Below, piece by piece: positions 37,092 to 48,727 of a stretch of 52,169 bases of DNA; positions within the stretch are counted from its first letter, which is position 1; the number at the start of each line of letters is the position of its first letter. Source of the stretch: an uncultured Clostridia bacterium (GTDB lineage: Bacteria > Bacillota > Clostridia > Oscillospirales > Ruminococcaceae). Location: contig CALXEL010000035.1 of assembly GCA_944387315.1 (NCBI GenBank), positions 1-52,169 of the forward strand, read 5' to 3'. Both the position numbers and the translations under genes were made by a program. The notes under the pieces were generated by a model that was not told where the DNA came from, did no database searches, and saw only the letters and a list, made by a program, of their open reading frames with translations.

Positions 37092-38369
37092 TTATTCTTC
37101 CTCATCCTGCTCCGGTTGCTCCGGCTCAAAATGAACCCGCAGCTTCTTTACCCGCTGCTCTTCCAATTCCAAAACGGTAATGGTAAACCCATGATAGGTG
37201 AAGCTGTCCCCTACCGCCGGCAGACGTTCCAGCTGTTCCATGGCCCAACCACTCATGGTGTTGTACTCACTGTCAAAGTTACGATCATCATAGTGGAATA
37301 GCTCAAACATGTCCTCAATGTCCATATCCCCGCTGACTTCGTAGGTTTCATCATCCAGACGGGTGTACTCCTGCTCCACTTCCTCGTCCTCGTCCCAAAT
37401 ATCGCCAACCAACTGTTCCAATACATCTTCCATGGTGACAATACCCATAGTTCCGCCGTAGTCATCGGTTACAATGGCAATATGGGAGCGCATCCGCTTA
37501 AAATCAGCCAAAAGGGTGGAGATTTTTTTGGTCTTATGGACAAAGTGGGGTTCGCTGAGCATTCCTCGCAGATCAATGGTCTCGCCCCGCACAACCGCTT
37601 CCAACAGATCCCGGCTTTGGAGAATACCGATAATGTTATCCACCGATTTTTCATACACCGGCAGTCGGGTAAAACGTTCTTCCATAACAGTGGCAATAAT
37701 CTCCGACATATCATCGGTAATGTCCAACGCCACCATGTCTACCCGGTGGGTCAGAATTTCCTGAACGGTGATGTCATTAAAGTCCAGAGCCGACTGTACC
37801 AGATCCGCTTCTTCCCCTTTGAGGACACCCTCTTCCTCAATGGTTTCAATGATGTACTTAAGTTCCTCTTCTGTCACCGATGGGTTTTTCTCATCAGAGG
37901 AATAAAAACGAGCCATTAAACCTTGCAGCATCGTAAAAAATTTCGCTACCGGCGACAGGATCAACATAACAAAGTTTAAGATATTCGCTGTTTTTAAAGC
38001 AAATTTCTCACTGTTCTCTTTGGCGTAACTTTTAGGCAAAATCTCGCCAAATATCAATACCAACACTGTTGTAACGGCGGTGGAAATCGCCGCGCCGCTG
38101 GCGCCAAACAGATCGGTAAACAGGATGGTCACAATGGATGCACTGGCAATGTTTACGACGTTGTTACCCACCAGAATGGTTGAAAGTGTCCTGTCATAGT
38201 TTTCCGCAATTTCCAAAGCGGCTTTCGCCTTGGTACTTCCGCTGTCCGCATAATTCTTTAACCGAATTTTGTTCACCGATGAAAACGCTGTTTCTGATGC
38301 GGAAAAGTAGGCGGAAAATCCGATGAGAATCAACACCGAAACATACATTATCCAACTGCCATCTTCCAA
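37092..38369 (-). CDS. CNNM/CorC-family (hemolysin C-like) transporter
   Basis: A 425-residue membrane protein. Residues 1-175 form the DUF21 (CNNM) membrane domain with YFSASETAFSSVNKIRLKN and VGNNVVNIASAS. Residues about 195-320 hold a pair of CBS domains (VDMVALDITDD; VTDDYGGTMGIVTMEDVLEQLVGDI), and residues about 330-415 the CorC_HlyC domain. Relatives export or take up Mg2+ and Co2+ and bind ATP-Mg through the CBS pair. The C-terminus is strongly acidic (EPEQPEQDEEE). The start is TTG at 38369 with GGAG 9 nt upstream; the next ATG, seven codons later, has no ribosome binding site. Confidence 0.9.
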   Translation of the reverse strand: MEDGSWIMYVSVLILIGFSAYFSASETAFSSVNKIRLKNYADSGSTKAKAALEIAENYDRTLSTILVGNNVVNIASASIVTILFTDLFGASGAAISTAVTTVLVLIFGEILPKSYAKENSEKFALKTANILNFVMLILSPVAKFFTMLQGLMARFYSSDEKNPSVTEEELKYIIETIEEEGVLKGEEADLVQSALDFNDITVQEILTHRVDMVALDITDDMSEIIATVMEERFTRLPVYEKSVDNIIGILQSRDLLEAVVRGETIDLRGMLSEPHFVHKTKKISTLLADFKRMRSHIAIVTDDYGGTMGIVTMEDVLEQLVGDIWDEDEEVEQEYTRLDDETYEVSGDMDIEDMFELFHYDDRNFDSEYNTMSGWAMEQLERLPAVGDSFTYHGFTITVLELEEQRVKKLRVHFEPEQPEQDEEE

Positions 38370-38432
38370 AATTGTTCACTCCATTTAATTATTTTGTCAA
38401 TATGTATGAAATTTCAGCTACATATGTTTTTA

Positions 38433-38461
38433 ATTATAGCAAAAAGGGGTTCAACCCTCAA
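38433..38461 (-). promoter_or_regulatory. promoter of the CNNM gene with overlapping palindromes
   Basis: On the minus strand TTGAGG (38461-38456), a 17-bp spacer and TATAAT (38438-38433). The spacer and -35 box contain GGGTT-C-AACCC (38447-38457) and ACCCT-CA-AGGGT (38454-38465), which share a half-site: a candidate operator. Confidence 0.55.
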
Positions 38462-38513
38462 GGGTGTAAAAAAGCTGAATTTGTCGGTTTTAGACCTGTT
38501 TAGGGCAAAATAA

Positions 38514-38545
38514 GAAAGGACAGCCGTTTTTCAGGCTGTCCTTTC
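38514..38545. terminator. terminator after pnp
   Basis: GAAAGGACAGCC and GGCTGTCCTTTC around an 8-nt loop. On the minus strand it is followed by TTATTTT. Confidence 0.8.
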
Positions 38546-38559
38546 CTCAGGCAATGCCG

Positions 38560-40668
38560 TTATTGTTTTTTCGCTTCCATGGCCAGCAGAGCGTCCTTCC
38601 GAGAGAGGTTGATTCTGCCCTGGGAATCGATTTCTGTCACCTTGACAATAATCTCATCTCCCACATTGACTACATCCTCTACCTTTTCAACCCGCTTGGT
38701 GTCCAATTTAGAGATGTGTACCAATCCCTCTTTGCCGGGAGCGATCTCCACAAAAGCTCCAAAGGCCATGAGACGGGTCACTTTGCCCTTATAGAAAGCT
38801 CCAACCTCTGGATCCTTGGCAATGGTTTCAATCATCTGAATGGCCCGGCGAGCGCTTTCAATATCAATGGCAGATACAAAGACCTTGCCATCGTCCTCAA
38901 TGTCAATCTTAGCGTCACACTCAGCACTGATCTTCTGGATTACCTTACCACCGGAACCAATAACCTCACGAATCTTTTCAGGGTCAATGGTTATGGTCAG
39001 CATCTTGGGTGCGAACTCAGACAGCTCAGCCCGAGGCTCAGGAATAGCCTTAAGCATAATCTCATCCAGAATATAGCATCTGGCCTTATAGGTTTTCTCC
39101 AGAGCGTCCTCAATGACCTCCATAGCCAGACCATCCGACTTAATATCTACCTGGATGGCAGTAATACCTTTATGGGTACCACCTACCTTAAAGTCCATAT
39201 CGCCGAAGAAATCTTCCAGTCCCTGGATATCGATCATGGTATCCCACCGGTCTCCCTCGGTGATGAGGCCGCAGGAAATACCGGCAACAGGTGCTTTGAT
39301 GGGCACACCGGCATCCATCAGAGCCAGGGTGGAACCACAAATGGAGGCCTGGGAGGTGGAACCATTGGAGGAGAGCACCTCAGAAACCAAACGCAAAGCA
39401 TAGGGGAATTCCTCTACCGAGGGGATTACAGGCAGCAGGGCCTTCTCAGCCAAAGCGCCATGGCCAATCTCACGACGGCCAGGGCCACGAGAGGGACGGG
39501 TCTCACCCACCGAGTAGGAGGGGAAGTTGTACTGGTGCATATACCGCTTGGTTTCCTCATTGTCAATGCCATCCAGCAGCTGGGCTTCCCGCATGGCGCC
39601 CAAAGTGGCAATGGTAAGCACCTGAGTCTGGCCTCTGGTAAACATACCAGAGCCATGCACCCGGGGAATCAGACCTACTTCCGCATTGAGTGGACGCATC
39701 TCATCCATTCTACGGCCATCTACCCGCTTTTTATCATCCAGCAGCCATCTTCTGACTACAAATTTTTGCAGTTTGTAGATACACTCATCAATTTTAGCGG
39801 TTTCTTCTGGATATACCTCATCAAATTTGGCGTGAATTCCGTCAATTACAGGAGCCAGGCGGGCATCCCGGACATTTTTGTCATCGGTATCCAAAGCGGC
39901 CCGTACATCCTCAATGGCAAACTCCTTGATGGCCTCGAACATCTCCGGGTCAATTTCCATCCGCTCATAGGTGAATTTGGGCTTGCCAATCTCAGCCTGT
40001 ACCTCAGAAATAAAGTGACAGATTTTCTGGACTTCCTCATGGCCGGCCTTGATGGCACGCATCATAGTGGCGTTGTCCACCTCTTTAGCGCCGCACTCCA
40101 ACATACACACCTTGGCGGCGGTACCAGCTACAGTCAGGTTCAGGTCGGAACGCTCCCGCTGCTGGGCGTTGGGGTTGATGACAATTTCTCCATCTACCAG
40201 ACCCACGCTGACACCACCAATGGGTCCATTCCATGGAATATCAGAAATAGACAGAGCGAAAGAAGTACCGATCAGGCCGCACACCTCGGGAGAAAAGTCG
40301 GGATCTACCGAGAGAACGGTCATAATGACAGTACAGTCATTGCGCATATCGTGAGGGAAGAGAGGACGGATGGAGCGGTCCACTACCCGGGAAGAAAGAA
40401 TGGCTTTCTCACTGGGACGGCCCTCACGCTTGAGGAAGGAGCCGGGGATTTTACCAACCGCGTAAAGTTTTTCCTCAAAATCTACAGACAGAGGGAAGAA
40501 GTCAATACCCTCTCTGGGCTGCCGGGACGCGGTAACATTGACCAGAACCGTTGTCTGGCCATAACGTACTAAACAGGAACCATTGGAAAGCCCGCACATC
40601 TTGCCTACTTCAAAGGACATCTCATGGCCAGCTACCATGGTTTTAAACACGCGAAACTGTTCAAACAT
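38560..40668 (-). CDS. pnp: polyribonucleotide nucleotidyltransferase (PNPase)
   Basis: The 702-residue phosphorolytic 3'-5' exoribonuclease that degrades mRNA with inorganic phosphate. Two RNase PH domains (about 1-140 and 310-450, the second with GSTSQASICGSTLALMDAG), an alpha-helical linker, a KH domain (about 550-610, GSGGKVIQKISAE) and an S1 domain (about 620-695, FVEIAPGKEGLVHISKL) appear in the standard order. GGAGGC precedes the ATG. It follows rpsO, as in most bacteria. The leader forms a long nested hairpin. Confidence 0.97.
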   Translation of the reverse strand: MFEQFRVFKTMVAGHEMSFEVGKMCGLSNGSCLVRYGQTTVLVNVTASRQPREGIDFFPLSVDFEEKLYAVGKIPGSFLKREGRPSEKAILSSRVVDRSIRPLFPHDMRNDCTVIMTVLSVDPDFSPEVCGLIGTSFALSISDIPWNGPIGGVSVGLVDGEIVINPNAQQRERSDLNLTVAGTAAKVCMLECGAKEVDNATMMRAIKAGHEEVQKICHFISEVQAEIGKPKFTYERMEIDPEMFEAIKEFAIEDVRAALDTDDKNVRDARLAPVIDGIHAKFDEVYPEETAKIDECIYKLQKFVVRRWLLDDKKRVDGRRMDEMRPLNAEVGLIPRVHGSGMFTRGQTQVLTIATLGAMREAQLLDGIDNEETKRYMHQYNFPSYSVGETRPSRGPGRREIGHGALAEKALLPVIPSVEEFPYALRLVSEVLSSNGSTSQASICGSTLALMDAGVPIKAPVAGISCGLITEGDRWDTMIDIQGLEDFFGDMDFKVGGTHKGITAIQVDIKSDGLAMEVIEDALEKTYKARCYILDEIMLKAIPEPRAELSEFAPKMLTITIDPEKIREVIGSGGKVIQKISAECDAKIDIEDDGKVFVSAIDIESARRAIQMIETIAKDPEVGAFYKGKVTRLMAFGAFVEIAPGKEGLVHISKLDTKRVEKVEDVVNVGDEIIVKVTEIDSQGRINLSRKDALLAMEAKKQ

Positions 40669-40691
40669 AAATAAACTGCCTCCTTTTTTGT

Positions 40692-40782
40692 GGGGGCAAA
40701 ACGCCTGCTTTTAGCAATTAATCCGCTGCCCGAATCTTCACTCGGACATCCGATTCACTGCTAAAGCTGTCTGTTTGCCCCC
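40692..40782 (-). promoter_or_regulatory. long nested hairpin in the pnp leader
   Basis: GGGGGCAAA(A)C at 40692-40702 pairs with GTTTGCCCCC at 40773-40782. Just inside, GCTTTTAGCA (40707-40716) pairs with TGCTAAAGC (about 40759-40767). A small stem TCGG-ACAT-CCGA sits in the loop (about 40743-40754). The ribosome binding site follows directly on the minus strand. The layout resembles the RNase III-cleaved leader through which E. coli PNPase controls its own synthesis. Confidence 0.55.
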
Positions 40783-40802
40783 GGTTTTAACCTAATGCAT
40801 TT

Positions 40803-40831
40803 GAAGGCAGGTGAACCCGTCACCTGCCTTC
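40803..40831 (-). terminator. hairpin between rpsO and pnp
   Basis: GAAGGCAGGTG and CACCTGCCTTC around a 7-nt loop. On the minus strand it is followed by AAATGC, not by a T-run, so it is more likely an mRNA-stabilising or processing hairpin than a full terminator. Confidence 0.5.
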
Positions 40832-40842
40832 TTGTTTCAACA

Positions 40843-41109
40843 TTACTTACGCAGACCCAGCTTGGCAACAATGGCGCGGTAACGCTCAATATCTTTCTTC
40901 TGAAGGTAGTTGAGCAGATTTCTTCTGTGACCAACCATCTTCAGCAGGCCGCGACGGGAATGATGATCTTTCTTGTGCTCTTTCAGATGCTCAGTCAGAT
41001 CATTGATTCTCTTGGTGAGAACAGCGATCTGAACTTCGGGAGAACCAGTATCGGTCTCATGGACTCTGTTGGCTTCAATAATTGCGCTTTTTTCTTCTTT
41101 TAACAGCAT
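40843..41109 (-). CDS. rpsO: 30S ribosomal protein S15
   Basis: The 88-residue primary 16S rRNA-binding protein S15, of normal length and sequence ([36 protein letters not shown] at its centre, with the rRNA-contacting DHHSRRGL). GAGGTGA precedes the ATG. The gene has its own promoter inside the ribF end region and a structured leader, which suggests feedback control by S15. Confidence 0.97.
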
Positions 41110-41147
41110 ACTATCACCTCATAAAATTTATCACAACCAGAATCTTA

Positions 41148-41192
41148 GCCTGAGGTGGGTGACACTCCCCACAGGGGCCTATCTCCTCAAGC
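41148..41192 (-). promoter_or_regulatory. structured rpsO leader, candidate S15 autoregulatory element
   Basis: On the minus strand GCUUGAGG (41192-41185) pairs with CCUCAGGC (41155-41148), one G-U pair included. This stem encloses a CCCC-UGU-GGGG hairpin (41177-41167) and a competing GGG...CCC pairing. Such junctions are typical of S15 leader RNAs, several unrelated forms of which are known. The ribosome binding site lies about 30 nt downstream. Confidence 0.5.
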
Positions 41193-41218
41193 CAGGAAAA
41201 AGGTCATATCAAGAATTA

Positions 41219-41247
41219 ATTATAGCACATGGCATTTGTGATGTAAA
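41219..41247 (-). promoter_or_regulatory. promoter of rpsO-pnp
   Basis: On the minus strand TTTACA (41247-41242), a 17-bp spacer and TATAAT (41224-41219), giving a leader of about 100 nt. Confidence 0.75.
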
Positions 41248-41263
41248 GTAAAAATCCTGTTGG

Positions 41264-42187
41264 TTAAAGATATTTTTGACAGAGGGCTCGGACATCATCA
41301 ATATTGCTCCGGATGGCTTTAAAAAGCTCTTCCAGCGACCCGAATTTTTGCTCTCCCCGCAAATAGTGATAAAACTCCACCTGAATATCCAAGCCGTAAA
41401 TGTTTCCATCAAAATCCAGTATGTGGGTTTCAGCCAATACCTCTTCACTGCCTACGGTGGGTTTGCGTCCTACATTGGTAGCCCCTACATACCGGCGGCC
41501 ATCCACTTCCACAACAGTGGCATAGACCCCGTTGCGAGGAACCAACTGACCCGGGGCAAATCGTTGGTTGGCAGTGGGATACAACCTGGTACTTCCCAAT
41601 CCCTTGCCGTGAATAACCGGGCCGGTGAGAGTATAGGGATGTCCAAGCATCCGATTGGCCGCCAGAAAGTCTCCCTGGGCAATACAGCGGCGTATCCGGG
41701 TGGAACTAATAGGCTCCCCCTCATCCAGAACAACCGGCACCGGGGTAACTGTAATTCCACGCACTTGGCACAGCTGAGTCAAACGTTCCACATTGCCGGA
41801 GGCACCTTTTCCAAAGTGGAAGTTGTCTCCGCAAAAAATCATTTTTGCCTGAAATTTTTTTACCAGAAGCTGGTCCACAAACTCCTCCGGCGTCAGATGG
41901 CGGAACTGGGAAAAATCAGGGCAGAATACATACTCCACCCCCATCCGGGCCAAAATCCGTTCCTTCTCTTTTTCGGTCTGCAGAAACCCCTGGCCCTGCT
42001 TGGCAGCCGGTGTCTCCTGCCCCACCGTAAAGGTAAATACACAGGGAATGAGTCCTTTTTTCCGCTGGGCCACCGCTTGGGAAATCACCGCCTGATGCCC
42101 CAGATGAATCCCGTCAAAAAAGCCGAGAGCAACAGAAGTCTTTTGATCCGGCAGGTTATTCTTGCCAAAATCGGTTATGGTAAACAG
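41264..42187 (-). CDS. ribF: bifunctional riboflavin kinase/FAD synthetase, probable CTG start
   Basis: The enzyme that makes FMN and then FAD from riboflavin, about 307 residues. The N-terminal nucleotidyltransferase domain contains ALGFFDGIHLGHQAVI (residues 20-35 of the extended protein), FGKGASG and ISSTRIR; the C-terminal kinase domain contains GPVIHGKGLGSTRLYPTAN and GVYATVVEVDG. The first ordinary start codon, a GTG at 42088, would remove the essential GFFDGIHLGH motif. Between the truB stop and that motif there is no in-frame ATG, GTG or TTG. GAGGGG (42200-42195) lies 7 nt before a CTG at 42187, which gives the N-terminus MFTITDFGKNN and a normal family length. I therefore place the start there. 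Confidence 0.85.
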   Translation of the reverse strand: MFTITDFGKNNLPDQKTSVALGFFDGIHLGHQAVISQAVAQRKKGLIPCVFTFTVGQETPAAKQGQGFLQTEKEKERILARMGVEYVFCPDFSQFRHLTPEEFVDQLLVKKFQAKMIFCGDNFHFGKGASGNVERLTQLCQVRGITVTPVPVVLDEGEPISSTRIRRCIAQGDFLAANRMLGHPYTLTGPVIHGKGLGSTRLYPTANQRFAPGQLVPRNGVYATVVEVDGRRYVGATNVGRKPTVGSEEVLAETHILDFDGNIYGLDIQVEFYHYLRGEQKFGSLEELFKAIRSNIDDVRALCQKYL

Positions 42188-42229
42188 CGTATTTCCCCTC
42201 TTTTCCTGAAAATAGCCGGTTTGATAAAG

Positions 42230-43147
42230 TCAAAACCTGTTGGGTTCTTTGTCCTGAATAATGGAAAACAGCTTACGCAGCCGCAGTTCCCCACTCTCCT
42301 GATCCAGATAGGAAATCCCCAGGAAACTGCCGTCACTGCCATAGACCCGAATATCTTGGGGGGTGTATTCCAGACGGAGCCTTCTCCAGTCCAGCTTTAC
42401 CCCATTTTGATACATCCGGGAGGTCTTTTCCGACAGGGTAAGCGATGGCAGTACCCCAAAAATTTTATCCACCGGCTGGATATAGTCGTCCACCTTGCCA
42501 GCCGCCACAATGTCGGTAAGCTGTTCCAAAGTTACCGCGTCCGCCAGGGTATATCCCGCCGCCATGGTGCGGCGCAGACTGGTCAATGCCGCTCCACAGC
42601 CCAACCGCTGCCCAATATCGTGACAGAGGGTACGGACATAGCTGCCCTTTGAGCAGCGCAAAGCGATGGTGACATCAGGCAGTTGCATATCCAGCAGCTG
42701 GATGGAATAAACGGTGATCTCCCGGACTGGACGGTCCACTTCCCGGCCCTCTCTGGCCAGGTCATAGAGCCGCATGCCATCCACACGCACCGCTGAATAC
42801 ATGGGCGGAACCTGCTGTTGGGTGCCTACAAAGGAGGCAATTACCTGCCTCACTTCCTCTTCTCCAACCAGAACCGGCCTGGTTTCCAGCACCGTTCCTC
42901 CCATATCCTGGGTGTCAGTGGTAATTCCCAGACGAAAAGTGGCCTCATAGGCCTTGTCCTGATTGGGTAAAATGTCACAGGCCTTGGTGGCCCGCCCAAT
43001 GAGAACCGGCAGTACACCAGTGGCCATTGGGTCCAGGGTGCCGGTATGTCCCAGCTTCCGAGTCTTTAAAATGCCCCGCATTCTGGCGATCACATCAAAC
43101 GAAGTGTGCTCCGCCGGTTTGTCTATACACAGTACGCCGTCTTTCAT
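42230..43147 (-). CDS. truB: tRNA pseudouridine(55) synthase
   Basis: A 305-residue enzyme that converts U55 in the T-loop of tRNA to pseudouridine. The catalytic Asp is in GHTGTLDPMATGVL (about residue 40), followed by KAYEATFRLG, SAVRVDGMRLYDLAR and the GSYVRTLCHDIG motif. A short C-terminal PUA-like region follows. It overlaps the nrnA gene by 4 nt and is the penultimate gene of the rimP-nusA operon. Confidence 0.96.
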   Translation of the reverse strand: MKDGVLCIDKPAEHTSFDVIARMRGILKTRKLGHTGTLDPMATGVLPVLIGRATKACDILPNQDKAYEATFRLGITTDTQDMGGTVLETRPVLVGEEEVRQVIASFVGTQQQVPPMYSAVRVDGMRLYDLAREGREVDRPVREITVYSIQLLDMQLPDVTIALRCSKGSYVRTLCHDIGQRLGCGAALTSLRRTMAAGYTLADAVTLEQLTDIVAAGKVDDYIQPVDKIFGVLPSLTLSEKTSRMYQNGVKLDWRRLRLEYTPQDIRVYGSDGSFLGISYLDQESGELRLRKLFSIIQDKEPNRF

Positions 43148-44097
43148 TGTTCCCCCAACTGGGCTCCAATGGCCTCATACAGTTTTCTCCTGGCCTCATC
43201 CAGGGTGCCGGAGATCACACAGCCGGCGGCGGCCTTGTGTCCACCGCCTCCCAGCCGCTTGCAAATTTCCGAAGCGTCCACCGACCGGGCAGTCCGTACC
43301 GAAACCTTGTAGCCGCCCTCCTTGCGTTCCCGCAGGGTGGCGCCTACCTCCACACCCTCAATCTGCCGGGGCATGGAAGAAATGCCGTCAATGTCCTCAT
43401 CCTCGGCCCCTGACTGGGCTACCATCTCCCTGGAAAGGACAATGGTGGCGCAGCGCTGATGGAAGGCGTACTCCAAGGTGGACATAGCCAGCCGTTCCAA
43501 AGCGATTCGCCCCTTGGACTTTGTCTCGAAAAGCAGCTGGTTCATATAGGTGATATCGATTCCAGCCTCAATAAGCTTGGCGGCTCGGAAATGGGTTTGC
43601 GCTGTGGTGTTGGAATACCGAAAACAACCGGTATCGGTGGCAATACCCGTATACAAAGCGGTAGCCATCGGCTGGGTCAAGGATACCCCCATGGCGGTGA
43701 CTATCTCATAGACGATCTCGGCGGTGGCAGCCGCGTGAGAATCCAGCAGCAGATGCTCCGCATAACCAGTGTTGGAAATATGGTGGTCGATACAAAGATC
43801 GATTTTATGGGCATAGGGTTCCAAAGCGGGACCCAGCAACTGGATATCCGCCACATCCACCGCCACAATATACTGGGGTTCAAAATCTGGCATGGGCCCC
43901 TGGGGATAAAAGTATCCAAACTTTTTGGGCATGGAATCGGAACAGAGAACCGCTGCCCGTTTGCCAATGGCAGTCAAGCCATAGTAGAGGCCATAGGCGG
44001 ACCCCAAAGTGTCCCCATCGGGGTTTTTATGGGTAAAAATCCAAATGTCCTCCGCTGTGGCCAACAGCATGCAGCACTGTTTTAAGTCAATCTGCAT
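43144..44097 (-). CDS. nrnA: DHH-family oligoribonuclease/pAp phosphatase (NrnA)
   Basis: A 317-residue DHH phosphoesterase that degrades very short RNAs and 3'-phosphoadenosine 5'-phosphate. The metal motifs are THKNPDGDTLGSA, AVDVAD, DHHISNTG and a further Asp in GIATDTGCF. The C-terminal DHHA1 domain has the substrate loop GGGGHKAAAG. The gene lies between rbfA (16-nt gap) and truB (4-nt overlap), its usual place in Firmicutes. Confidence 0.94.
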   Translation of the reverse strand: MQIDLKQCCMLLATAEDIWIFTHKNPDGDTLGSAYGLYYGLTAIGKRAAVLCSDSMPKKFGYFYPQGPMPDFEPQYIVAVDVADIQLLGPALEPYAHKIDLCIDHHISNTGYAEHLLLDSHAAATAEIVYEIVTAMGVSLTQPMATALYTGIATDTGCFRYSNTTAQTHFRAAKLIEAGIDITYMNQLLFETKSKGRIALERLAMSTLEYAFHQRCATIVLSREMVAQSGAEDEDIDGISSMPRQIEGVEVGATLRERKEGGYKVSVRTARSVDASEICKRLGGGGHKAAAGCVISGTLDEARRKLYEAIGAQLGEQ

Positions 44098-44113
44098 TTG
44101 TGCCCCGCTCCTT

Positions 44114-44452
44114 TTACTTTAAGTCGTTTAAAATTCTCGCAATGTCCGCGCTGTGGGCGATAGAGTCATCCGCCACAAAGTGGAAAGCCGGGGAGCGGCG
44201 CATGTCAATCCGCTGATTGATCTCATGGCGGATAAAGCCAGCAGCGTTATTGAGTCCCGCTACAGCCTCTTTGGCACCCTCCATACCATCCAGGGAGCTG
44301 ATATATACCTTGCAATGGGACATATCTCCCGACAAATCCACCTTTACAATGCTCAGCATCCCGGTAATCCGGGGGTCTTTAAGGGAACGCATAATATCGG
44401 TGAGTTCCCGTTTAATATCCTCACTGAGGCGAGAAATCTTATAGGAAGGCAT
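44114..44452 (-). CDS. rbfA: ribosome-binding factor A
   Basis: A 112-residue KH-type protein needed for late maturation of the 30S subunit. The family pattern RLSEDIKRELTDIMRSLKDPRI, then VDLSGDMSHCKVYISSL and RHEINQRIDMRRSPAFHFVADDS is complete. The ATG follows AGGAGGA. A 76-nt spacer with a G/C hairpin (44485-44510, no T-run) separates it from infB. Confidence 0.96.
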   Translation of the reverse strand: MPSYKISRLSEDIKRELTDIMRSLKDPRITGMLSIVKVDLSGDMSHCKVYISSLDGMEGAKEAVAGLNNAAGFIRHEINQRIDMRRSPAFHFVADDSIAHSADIARILNDLK

Positions 44453-44484
44453 TGATCCATTCCTCCTTTTCTCTTTTTGGTTCC

Positions 44485-44510
44485 CCGGGCAGCCAGTACC
44501 AACCGCCCGG
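44485..44510 (-). repeat. intercistronic hairpin between infB and rbfA
   Basis: CCGGGC and GCCCGG around a 14-nt loop. There is no T-run on either side, so this is probably an mRNA-stability or processing element. Confidence 0.45.
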
Positions 44511-44528
44511 AGGAAAACCAGTTTCTTT

Positions 44529-47000
44529 TTAGTCTCTGTACTCTTCTACCATATATGCCTCAAATACGTCGCCTTCCTTAATGTCGTTGAATTTAGAAAG
44601 GCTCATACCACACTCATAGCCGGAAGCCACTTCTTTCACATCGTCCTTAAACCGTTTGAGGCTTTCCAGCTTGTCGTCGGCGATGATGATGCCATCCCGT
44701 ACAATGCGGATATTGGCGGTACGGGTAATTTTACCTTCCAGTACATAACAACCCGCTACAGCACCCACACCGGAAATCTTGTATACAGCACGAACCTCAG
44801 CCCGGCCCAGATCCACATCCCGGTATTTGGGAGCCAGCATACCTTTCATAGCAGTTTCCACATCATTGATGGCGTCATAAATAATCCGGTACAGACGGAT
44901 CTCTACCCCGTCTCTCTCGGCGTTTTCCTTGGCCACTGGGTCAGGACGGACGTTGAAGCCTACAATGATAGCGTTGGAAGCGTTGGCCAGCATGACATCC
45001 GACTCGCTGACAGCACCTACCGCCCCATGGATTACCCGCACCCGTACCTCGTCGTTGGACAGTTTCTCCAAAGACTGTTTTACAGCCTCCACAGAACCCT
45101 GTACATCGGCTTTGATAATAATGGGCAGTTCCTTCATCTCACCCTCAGAAATCTGAGAGAAGAGGTTATCCAAGGTGACCTTTTGGTAGGACTTGAACTG
45201 CTCCTCCTTGGCCTCGTTGCGGCGTTTGTCCACCAGCTCTCTGGCCAGCTTCTCGTCCTCTACCACATTGAACAGGTCGCCAGCCGCGGGTACTTCCGCC
45301 AGACCGGTAACCTCTACAGGGGTGGAGGGTCCCGCCGCCTCAATTTTCTCGCCCCGGTCATTGAGCATAACCCGTACCCGGCCCAAAGCGGTGCCGGCGA
45401 TCAGCACATCCCCACTGTGGAGGGTACCATTCTGTACCAGCAGAGTAGCCACAGGGCCCCGGCCTTTGTCCAGCTTGGCTTCGATCACAGTACCGCTGGC
45501 CATCCGGTTGGGATTGGCTTTCAGTTCCTGCATCTCGGCTACCAGCAGGATCATCTCCAGCAGGGTGTCAATATTCTCACCGGTTTTGGCCGAAACCGGT
45601 ACGCAGATCACGTCGCCGCCCCACTCCTCGGGAACCAGTTCATATTCGGTCAGCTCCTGCTTTACCTTCTCAGGATCAGCAGTAGGTTTATCCATTTTGT
45701 TAATGGCCACAATGATGGAAACGCCCGCCGCTTTGGCATGGTTGATAGCCTCTACGGTCTGGGGCATAATGCCGTCATCTGCTGCCACAACCAGAACAGC
45801 AATATCGGTCACCTGAGCACCTCTGGCACGCATAGAGGTAAAGGCGGCGTGTCCGGGGGTATCCAGGAAGGTAATGGGCTTATCGTTGATTTGAACCTGA
45901 TAGGCACCGATATGCTGGGTAATACCTCCTGCCTCGCCGGTGGTCACATTGGTTTTACGGATAGCGTCCAAAAGGGAGGTCTTACCATGGTCAACATGGC
46001 CCATAACCACAACGATGGGACACCGCTCCTGGAGATTGGCCTCATCGTCCTGCTCCGGCTCAAAGAGACGCTCCTCAATGGTTACCACTACCTCATGCTC
46101 GACCTTGGCGCCAATTTCCATGGCCACCAAAGCGGCTGTATCGTAGTCAATGGTCTCATTGACACTGGCCATGACCCCAATGGTCATCAGTCTCTTGATA
46201 ATTTCAGCCGACTGAATCTTGAGCTTGGCAGCCAGCTCACCTACTGTGATCTCATCTGGCAGGGTGATTTCCAGTTTCTGGCGGCGCTGACGCTCCATCT
46301 CCAGCCGTTTCAGCTTGTCGTTTTCCTTGTCCTTCCGGGACTTGATGGGCTTGCCCTTCTGGGCGGAACGCTGGTTGAGCTTCTGTTTCTTGACATCGCT
46401 CATGGGGCGGTTCAGGTTACTCATCTGCTCATAGCGCTCGTTGTACTTATCCAGGTTGACATTGGCCGCCCGCATATCCACATGCCGGGATTCCCGAGTG
46501 GTAATGGTGTTGGAAACAGGGGCCTGGTTTTGGCTCTGAGCCGCTGGGGCACTAGATTGAGGAGCCCGGGGCGCATTGCCAGCAGGACGCTGGGGAGCGC
46601 TGGCACCCTTTTGAGCCGGGCGCTGGCCATTCTGCTGAGCAGGCCGCTGCTGTTCCTGAGCAGGTTTTCCATTCTGCTGTCTCTGGGGCTGTCTGTTGTT
46701 TGGCTGAGAAGCGGGACGGGCATTCTCCCGGGGAGGCTGCCCCGCAGGTTTGGTCTCCTGGGGCTCCTGCTTGGGGGGATTCTTTTCCCCACTCTCCTGG
46801 GCCATTTTAAAATACTCGTCAAAGTTTTCAACCTGTTTTTGCTGTGTATAATGTTCCAAAACAACATCCAGCTCTTTTTCGGTGAGAGCAGTCATGTGTT
46901 TCTTGGGGGTATCAAAGTTTTTTCCCAGCAGGTCAATGACCTCTTTACTGGGAACATTGAGGTCCTTGGCCACCTCATGCACACGGTATTTCTCCATCAT
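44529..47000 (-). CDS. infB: translation initiation factor IF-2
   Basis: The 823-residue GTPase that brings initiator tRNA to the 30S subunit. Residues 1-50 form an IF2_N subdomain ([21 protein letters not shown]). Residues about 70-210 are a low-complexity linker rich in Gln, Pro, Asn and Ala. A second IF2_N subdomain (about 245-300) precedes the G domain with [12 protein letters not shown] (G1), DTPGHAAF (G3) and INKMD (G4). Domains II-IV follow with [12 protein letters not shown]. It overlaps the ylxQ gene by 4 nt. Confidence 0.97.
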
Positions 47001-47320
47001 AGTATCCAGTCCTCCTTTTCATTGCTGAGCATGTGATACAGTTTTTGCGCAAGTCCCTGTTCGGTTATGGCAAGCACACCTGCCCGTTTGTTGACGCTCT
47101 GCCAAACCTCATCCATACTGTGAGGCATCTTGGCAACCGGAATTTGGTTTTTCTGAGCGATAAAATGTATTTCTTTTTCTGTTTTAGGGGAGATGTCAGC
47201 TGCCAGCAGAATCAGCCTGGCTGTCTGTTTTTGGGCTGATTCCTTTACCGGATCAAAGCCCAGCACCAATTTTCCTGCCCGTTTGCTCAGAGACACCAGA
47301 GAAAGAATCCTACTGTTCAC
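46997..47320 (-). CDS. ylxQ: L7Ae-family ribosome-associated protein YlxQ
   Basis: A 107-residue RNA-binding protein of the L7Ae/L30e family, encoded between rnpM (ylxR) and infB in Firmicutes. It shows [21 protein letters not shown] and [18 protein letters not shown], typical of kink-turn binding proteins. The exact RNA partner is not established. It overlaps its neighbours by 11 nt (upstream) and 4 nt (downstream). Confidence 0.93.
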
Positions 47321-47585
47321 CCTTGGTCAGTTCCTCCTCCATACGGTCATAAACTTCATCGGGAATCTGACAGGAAAAAGCCCGTTCGAACCGCTTGGAT
47401 TTTCTGGCTTTTCTCAGGCATTCAATATCTCTGCAGACATAGGCACCCCGACCAGATTTTTTGCCGGTCAGATCCAATGAAATCTCCCCCTCAGGGCTTT
47501 TCACCACACGAACCAGCTCTTTTTTTGGTTTTTGCTCTCCACAACCGGTACACATCCGAAGGGGGATTTTTTTCTTTTGCACCAT
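47310..47585 (-). CDS. rnpM: RNase P modulator RnpM (YlxR)
   Basis: A 91-residue protein of the YlxR family, shown in Bacillus subtilis to bind the RNase P RNA and modulate its activity. The family signature is RMCTGCGEQKPKKELVRVV and GRGAYVCRDIECLRKA. It is coupled to ylxQ by an 11-nt overlap and lies 80 nt downstream of nusA. Confidence 0.94.
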   Translation of the reverse strand: MVQKKKIPLRMCTGCGEQKPKKELVRVVKSPEGEISLDLTGKKSGRGAYVCRDIECLRKARKSKRFERAFSCQIPDEVYDRMEEELTKGEQ

Positions 47586-47665
47586 GTCATAAGCCTCCCA
47601 GAGCCTGTGTAAAATTGCAGGCCAGTCTTTATGATATGCTCCGGACAGGGCCGGAGTAAAACATC

Positions 47666-48727
47666 TTACGCCTCATCCTCACCATAGAATCCGCTTTCGG
47701 GACGGATATCTATCTTCCAACCGGTCAAGCGGGCTGCCAGTCTGGCGTTTTGTCCTTTATTGCCAATGGCCAGGGACAACTGGTGATCCGGTACGGTAAC
47801 CCGACAACTCTTGGGCACTTCCGGGTCGATGTCCACTTTTAAAACCTCAGCGGGAGAAAGGGCGGCACTGATAAATTCTGTGGGATCTTCGGAATATTTG
47901 ACCACATCAATTTTTTCTCCACCCAGTTCCTCTACAATGCCGGAAACTCTGGCTCCCTTGGGACCAATACAGGCGCCTACCGCATCCACATTGGCATCTT
48001 TGGAATATACGGCGATTTTGGTACGGGAACCAGCTTCCCGGGAAATGGCTTTGATCTCTACAGTGCCATCATAAATTTCAGGCACCTGCATCTCAAACAG
48101 CCGTTTTACCAAACCTGGATGGGTACGGGAAATCATCATTCTGGGGCCTTTTTCCCCGTTGGCTACATCTACCACATAGACCTTGATTTTATCGCCCTCG
48201 TGATACTCTTCGCCGGCAACCTGCTCCGCTTTGGGCAAAATCGCCTCATTGCGTCCAATCTCCAAAGTGACATTACCCTTCTTGGGATCCACTTTCAATA
48301 CAGTGGCGGTGACAATATCATACTGGCGGTTCTGGTACTCCTGTAAAAGCTGTCCACGTTCCGCCTCCCGGATCCCCTGCCGAATCACATGCTTGGCAGC
48401 TTGGGCGGCAATTCGTCCGAACTCCTTGGTTTCCAGAGGGATTTGTACCATCTCGCCAACTGCGGCGTTTTTGGTATACTTGGCGGCGTCATTGACCGTA
48501 ATTTCAGTGGCGGGATCTTCTACATCCTCTACAACCATTTTACGGATGGCTACAAAGAAACGGCCGGTAACAGGATCGATTTCCACAATGTTGTCCTCAG
48601 AACCGCCCGCGTCCCGTTTTACAGCGATAGAGATGGCATTTTGAATTTTTTCCACCAGATACTGCATGGGAATACCTTTTTCCTTTTCCAGCAGCGCCAA
48701 CGCCTCAAAAAACTCCTTGTTATTCAT
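47666..48727 (-). CDS. nusA: transcription termination/antitermination factor NusA
   Basis: The 353-residue RNA polymerase-binding factor that promotes pausing, hairpin folding and termination. The N-terminal polymerase-binding domain (1-125), S1 domain (about 130-200, GNVTLEIGRNEAILP), KH1 (about 225-280, GACIGPKGARVSGI) and KH2 (about 300-345, LAIGNKGQNARLAARLTGWKIDI) are in order. The C-terminal acidic repeats of proteobacterial NusA are absent, as usual in Firmicutes; only a short GEDEA tail follows. It is the second gene of the operon. Confidence 0.96.
   Translation of the reverse strand: MNNKEFFEALALLEKEKGIPMQYLVEKIQNAISIAVKRDAGGSEDNIVEIDPVTGRFFVAIRKMVVEDVEDPATEITVNDAAKYTKNAAVGEMVQIPLETKEFGRIAAQAAKHVIRQGIREAERGQLLQEYQNRQYDIVTATVLKVDPKKGNVTLEIGRNEAILPKAEQVAGEEYHEGDKIKVYVVDVANGEKGPRMMISRTHPGLVKRLFEMQVPEIYDGTVEIKAISREAGSRTKIAVYSKDANVDAVGACIGPKGARVSGIVEELGGEKIDVVKYSEDPTEFISAALSPAEVLKVDIDPEVPKSCRVTVPDHQLSLAIGNKGQNARLAARLTGWKIDIRPESGFYGEDEA

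Follow-up and report, generated by a model that had tools for sequence, protein, structure and literature searches.

The window analysed is a 52,169-nucleotide contig (CALXEL010000035.1) of an uncultured Clostridia bacterium of the family Ruminococcaceae (assembly GCA_944387315.1; hereafter the query genome). Its minus strand carries truB (positions 42230–43147), which encodes tRNA pseudouridine(55) synthase, starts at ATG and ends at a TGA at 42232–42230; ribF (41264–42187; assigned by Pfam and NCBIfam), which encodes a bifunctional riboflavin kinase/FAD synthetase of 307 aa if started at the CTG proposed below; and, downstream of ribF, rpsO (40843–41109), which was identified from its sequence, starts at ATG and serves as a same-locus control. 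The open ribF frame extends from the truB TGA to a stop near 41264, and the 42 nt that separate the two genes (42188–42229) are in frame with truB. Codon-by-codon reading of the minus strand reveals no in-frame ATG, GTG or TTG between the truB stop and GFFDGIHLGHQ (42092–42124), the nucleotidyltransferase motif N1 of FAD synthetases. From the truB stop, the codons read CTT TAT CAA ACC GGC TAT TTT CAG GAA AAG AGG GGA AAT ACG CTG TTT ACC ATA ACC GAT. The first canonical start codon is a GTG (42086–42088) that lies 3' of the motif; an ORF finder limited to ATG, GTG and TTG begins here, and returns a 274-aa ORF lacking GFFDGIHLGHQ. Hence, no canonical in-frame start would yield a functional product. 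Sequence, frame and coordinates are as claimed in the original prediction, as is the loss of an essential motif upon automatic annotation. There is a ~7% chance that 35 codons carry no canonical start codon by themselves, and so the case for a CTG start rests on homology and on the Shine-Dalgarno (SD) sequence, rather than on missing codons. A 458-aa open frame antisense to both ribF and truB (41276–42652, plus strand) probably arises mechanically from codon usage.

The ribF product is a predicted bifunctional RibF. Translation from the CTG includes both RibF domains (Pfam FAD_syn PF06574, 5.9e-39; Flavokinase PF01687, 3.8e-39), and the protein scores 227 bits against the NCBIfam model TIGR00083 ribF (cut-off 184). 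Motif N1 (GxFDGxHxGH) belongs to the N-terminal domain, and is present only if translation starts upstream of the GTG at 42088. N1 is a conserved feature of FAD synthetases, with a proposed role in stabilising the NTP in the active site (PMC2573891). The family survey in the same paper contains one FAD synthetase group in which the first motif of the N-terminal domain is absent; certain members may owe this to a wrongly annotated start, as in the query ribF. The gene is single-copy, with no second ribF in the query genome. No lumazine synthase was detected in the query genome, and the one FMN riboswitch found there lies before a gene for a RibU-like ECF transporter (L297, G000:C69). Based on these two features of its sequence, the organism is probably a riboflavin auxotroph that imports riboflavin, with RibF as its sole route to FMN and FAD.

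Two properties single out the CTG at 42185–42187 as the start of ribF. Firstly, it is preceded at functional spacing by an SD sequence, GAGGGG (42195–42200), which lies 7 nt upstream as originally described. The predicted duplex with the anti-SD has an energy of -10.2 kcal/mol, compared with a median of -2.9 over the CTG triplets of the window; a duplex this strong is found at only 2.5% of these 2,325 triplets. If the distance is counted from GAGG, it is 9 nt, equal to that between GGAGG and the ATT start of infC in the query genome. Secondly, the CTG occupies the homologous start position: it aligns with TTG, ATG, CTG, ACG and ATT starts in relatives. The RNA fold around the start is unremarkable (z -0.76), and an Rfam scan of window positions 38000–48000 gave no match; no regulatory RNA structure was found in either.

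Across 298 same-family genomes searched, ribF was found in 286. A single-protein scan of genome and viral contigs returned no relatives, and RibF matches in phage records were distant only (<60% identity). In the nearest relatives (51–54% identity over the alignment), the aligned codon is TTG in three (L003, L004, L006) and ATG in one (L005), with a strong SD before the aligned start in each. The check proposed in the original prediction, whether relatives carry ATG at this codon, thus finds ATG in L005 and TTG in the other three.

Near-cognate codons occupy the aligned position in further genera. In Fournierella (genus g26), ribF carries CTG in six of seven species and TTG in the seventh; the start region of the CTG species reads GAAAGGACG TGA ... 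CTG AAR RTY TAY, and is the same in L191 as in L098. In genus g3, ACG is invariant in all six species (L039, L055, L069, L100, L102, L104), none of which has a usable ATG, GTG or TTG. This ACG sits 7–9 nt past a GGGTGA-type SD, and the codon that follows it is variable (ATA, ATT, GTT). Because of this variability, the ACG is the more likely ribF start in genus g3, though less certain than the CTG cases. Three species of genus g110 (L110, L133, L145) have ATT at the aligned start, which we rejected as a firm start: three codons before it, a GTG in the same frame overlaps the truB stop (GTGA) and may be used instead. The ribF match of another relative (L076; G037:C5) contains one in-frame TAA.

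The start codons of 153 same-family ribF loci from 82 genera are distributed as ATG 77, TTG 51, GTG 9, CTG 7, ACG 6 and ATT 3 (ambiguous), where near-cognate starts were assigned by hand after inspection and the remainder by best SD. The seven CTG loci are those of the query and six Fournierella-group species, and the six ACG loci are those of all six species of one genus. For relatives, starts were called from SD strength and alignment. Ranking by SD first may inflate the TTG count, although truB and rpsO were treated by the identical rule. At the same loci, truB starts (n=96) are ATG in 81 cases (84%), GTG in 8 and TTG in 7, with no near-cognates, while rpsO starts are ATG in 62 of 62. Both the deficit of ATG at ribF (77/153 versus 81/96 at truB; Fisher p=4e-8) and the excess of TTG (51/153 versus 7/96; Fisher p=1e-6) have p values that are optimistic, as related species are non-independent. 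Weak starts are strongly enriched at ribF compared with truB and rpsO of the same loci. On the RibF tree, near-cognate starts require 6 changes, compared with 15.4 when labels are shuffled (minimum 14), indicating that they are inherited within lineages and have arisen more than once.

The CTG at 42187 is thus very probably the ribF start, as first predicted: its position, its SD, the homologous start positions and the independent near-cognates in other genera all support it. Our preferred explanation, to which we assign a probability of about 0.65, is that ribF has come to start at CTG from a clade-wide weak (TTG) start, that a strong SD rescues it, and that the resulting low rate of translation suffices. 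The CTG would most likely have arisen by a single T-to-C change from the TTG, the simplest origin given that several of the nearest relatives have TTG at the aligned codon. The strong, well-spaced SD would recruit the 30S subunit, and fMet-tRNA would pair with CUG at low efficiency, in an otherwise ordinary initiation. Since CTG is a poor start, RibF output would be low from an mRNA shared with truB and probably rpsO, with the strong SD partly compensating; translation should, like that of infC, be sensitive to IF3. The low rate would be sufficient, as demand for RibF is low and the organism appears to import riboflavin. As to scale, the part of PMC11983097 that cites Hecht et al. places CTG ~ten times below TTG in E. 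coli with a good RBS.

The occurrence of rare ribF starts arising independently in related genera suggests that RibF production is kept, or tolerated, low. A reasonable purpose would be to hold RibF below TruB and RpsO in dosage, but tolerance of a weak start is almost equally likely; a dosage-setting role for the CTG is an evenly balanced proposition. The proposal that the codon is a built-in means of keeping FMN/FAD synthesis low is accordingly plausible, and gains from weak starts being so much commoner at ribF than at truB and rpsO, but is weakened by the strong SD, by the lack of a regulatory RNA structure, and by the fact that tolerance explains the same observations. A more ambitious version seems unlikely: that ribF is a recurrent near-cognate target in the family (CTG, ACG, perhaps ATT), with ACG the conserved start of one genus, and that selection keeps these codons as an IF3-sensitive throttle tying flavin cofactor synthesis to initiation capacity.

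It is possible, though less likely than not, that the CTG is a real start without regulatory meaning, and that a small need for RibF makes drift to weak starts (TTG, then CTG) harmless. On the RibF tree, ribF does switch often between AUG and non-AUG starts (34 changes), the start has neither a fold nor an RNA element nearby, and the weak codon comes with a strong SD. However, drift does not readily account for weak starts at ribF being well above those at truB in the same operon, nor for the persistence of near-cognates in 6/6 species of one genus and 6/7 of another. Furthermore, purifying selection generally acts on AUG starts, and CUG very rarely replaces an ancestral start among closely related genomes (2 of 61,358 ancestral AUG and 1 of 2,468 ancestral UUG codons; PMC5622118).

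Initiation at a neighbouring near-cognate codon, either the ACG at 42190 or the ATA at 42178, is improbable. The ACG lies immediately 5' of the CTG, and is the very codon that is invariant at the ribF start of genus g3, but the infC-like 9 nt spacing from GAGG belongs to the CTG; the ACG is 6 nt away and the ATA 18 nt. ACG is also a weaker start codon than CTG.

A lineage-wide relaxation of start selection, with CTG used at many genes, is likewise improbable. We scanned 795 kb of the query genome (~650 genes, ~40%) for genes that lack a good canonical start but have a near-cognate one behind a strong SD. Three credible cases emerged: (i) ribF (CTG), (ii) a DUF1576-like gene (CTG), and (iii) infC (ATT). 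Most of the remaining candidates were rejected, having been judged by eye to lie inside genes or on antisense frames. The second plausible CTG start (AGGGAGGAAACGGTA CTG AAT; L176:8548, minus strand, G000:C12) is at the start position of its homologues, in a membrane protein gene that we take to be of the DUF1576-like family. It is the kind of case that relaxed selection would produce, yet ~3 credible near-cognate starts in ~650 genes, infC among them, are few. The infC gene is autoregulated by its own product IF3. Across the loci L285–L296 it begins with ATT in the query genome and its nearest relatives, with ATC in Fournierella and with ATA in genus g3: a conserved near-cognate start whose third base differs between genera. 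Given these infC starts, translation from near-cognate codons probably occurs in all of these genomes, as IF3 autoregulation of infC would lead one to expect. We also considered an abnormal initiator tRNA and rejected it: the three G-C pairs of the anticodon stem (GGG/CCC) are intact in the query, Fournierella and g3. The IF3 gene is present and above the family cut-off. Swapping one initiator-tRNA G-C pair lowers discrimination against CUG in vitro (PMC11497404), and retention of these pairs makes a general loosening of start selection unlikely.

A base-calling or assembly error that hides TTG, GTG or ATG at 42187 would need only a single substitution, and the C at this position comes from one genome of its genus, assembled in 121 contigs. 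Such an error is nevertheless very unlikely to be the explanation, as the same situation is seen in at least two other genera, each with several separately assembled species; near-cognate ribF starts in the family are thus very likely real. Least credible is readthrough of the truB TGA into a TruB-RibF fusion: truB and ribF share a frame in the query and in Fournierella species, and one relative (L113) has an in-frame fusion, but the two frames differ in genus g3, the phase of the ribF start relative to the truB stop is, taken overall, close to random (23/32/30), and an SD before the CTG would be pointless. With the phase varying in this way, readthrough was rejected as a general explanation. 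In L113 (genome G194; one species) the truB stop is missing and the two genes form one frame, an apparent natural fusion.

Near-cognate starts are known but rare, and what makes the present case interesting is that they recur at a single metabolic gene and that one genus may use ACG throughout. Our literature search, with most subscription journals outside its scope, returned no description of near-cognate starts, or of their recurrence, at ribF. The practical consequence is that gene finders skip such codons, and that annotations of RibF, which is required for all FMN and FAD, would miss its ATP-binding motif in several genera of gut Clostridia. Persistent near-cognates at one metabolic gene, beside neighbours that mostly start at ATG, also offer a natural test of whether start strength sets dosage within an operon.

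Three known systems invite comparison with the CTG-started ribF. The first is the rep gene of RepFIB (F-like plasmids), which has a CTG start and a good RBS, is expressed at a low level, loses function when CTG is changed to CTC, and is commonly annotated, wrongly, as starting at a GTG 14 codons further on; its CTG is selected for just enough product (PMC11983097). The query ribF likewise combines a CTG start and a good SD with misannotation at a downstream GTG, and low expression is proposed for it. It differs in that RepFIB rep encodes a plasmid replication initiator and its start is experimentally proven, while ribF is a chromosomal enzyme gene with a predicted start. The second is infC, which in the same genomes shares with ribF a conserved near-cognate start and a strong SD. 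Membership of the infC-type, IF3-autoregulated class is defined by IF3 as the product, whereas the product of ribF is RibF and no initiation factor; any effect of IF3 on ribF would be cross-regulation. Finally, RibF/FAD synthetase genes that start at GTG or TTG, such as that of C. ammoniagenes (GTG; PMC2573891), resemble the query ribF in the weakness of their starts, but the query codon lies outside the ATG/GTG/TTG set.
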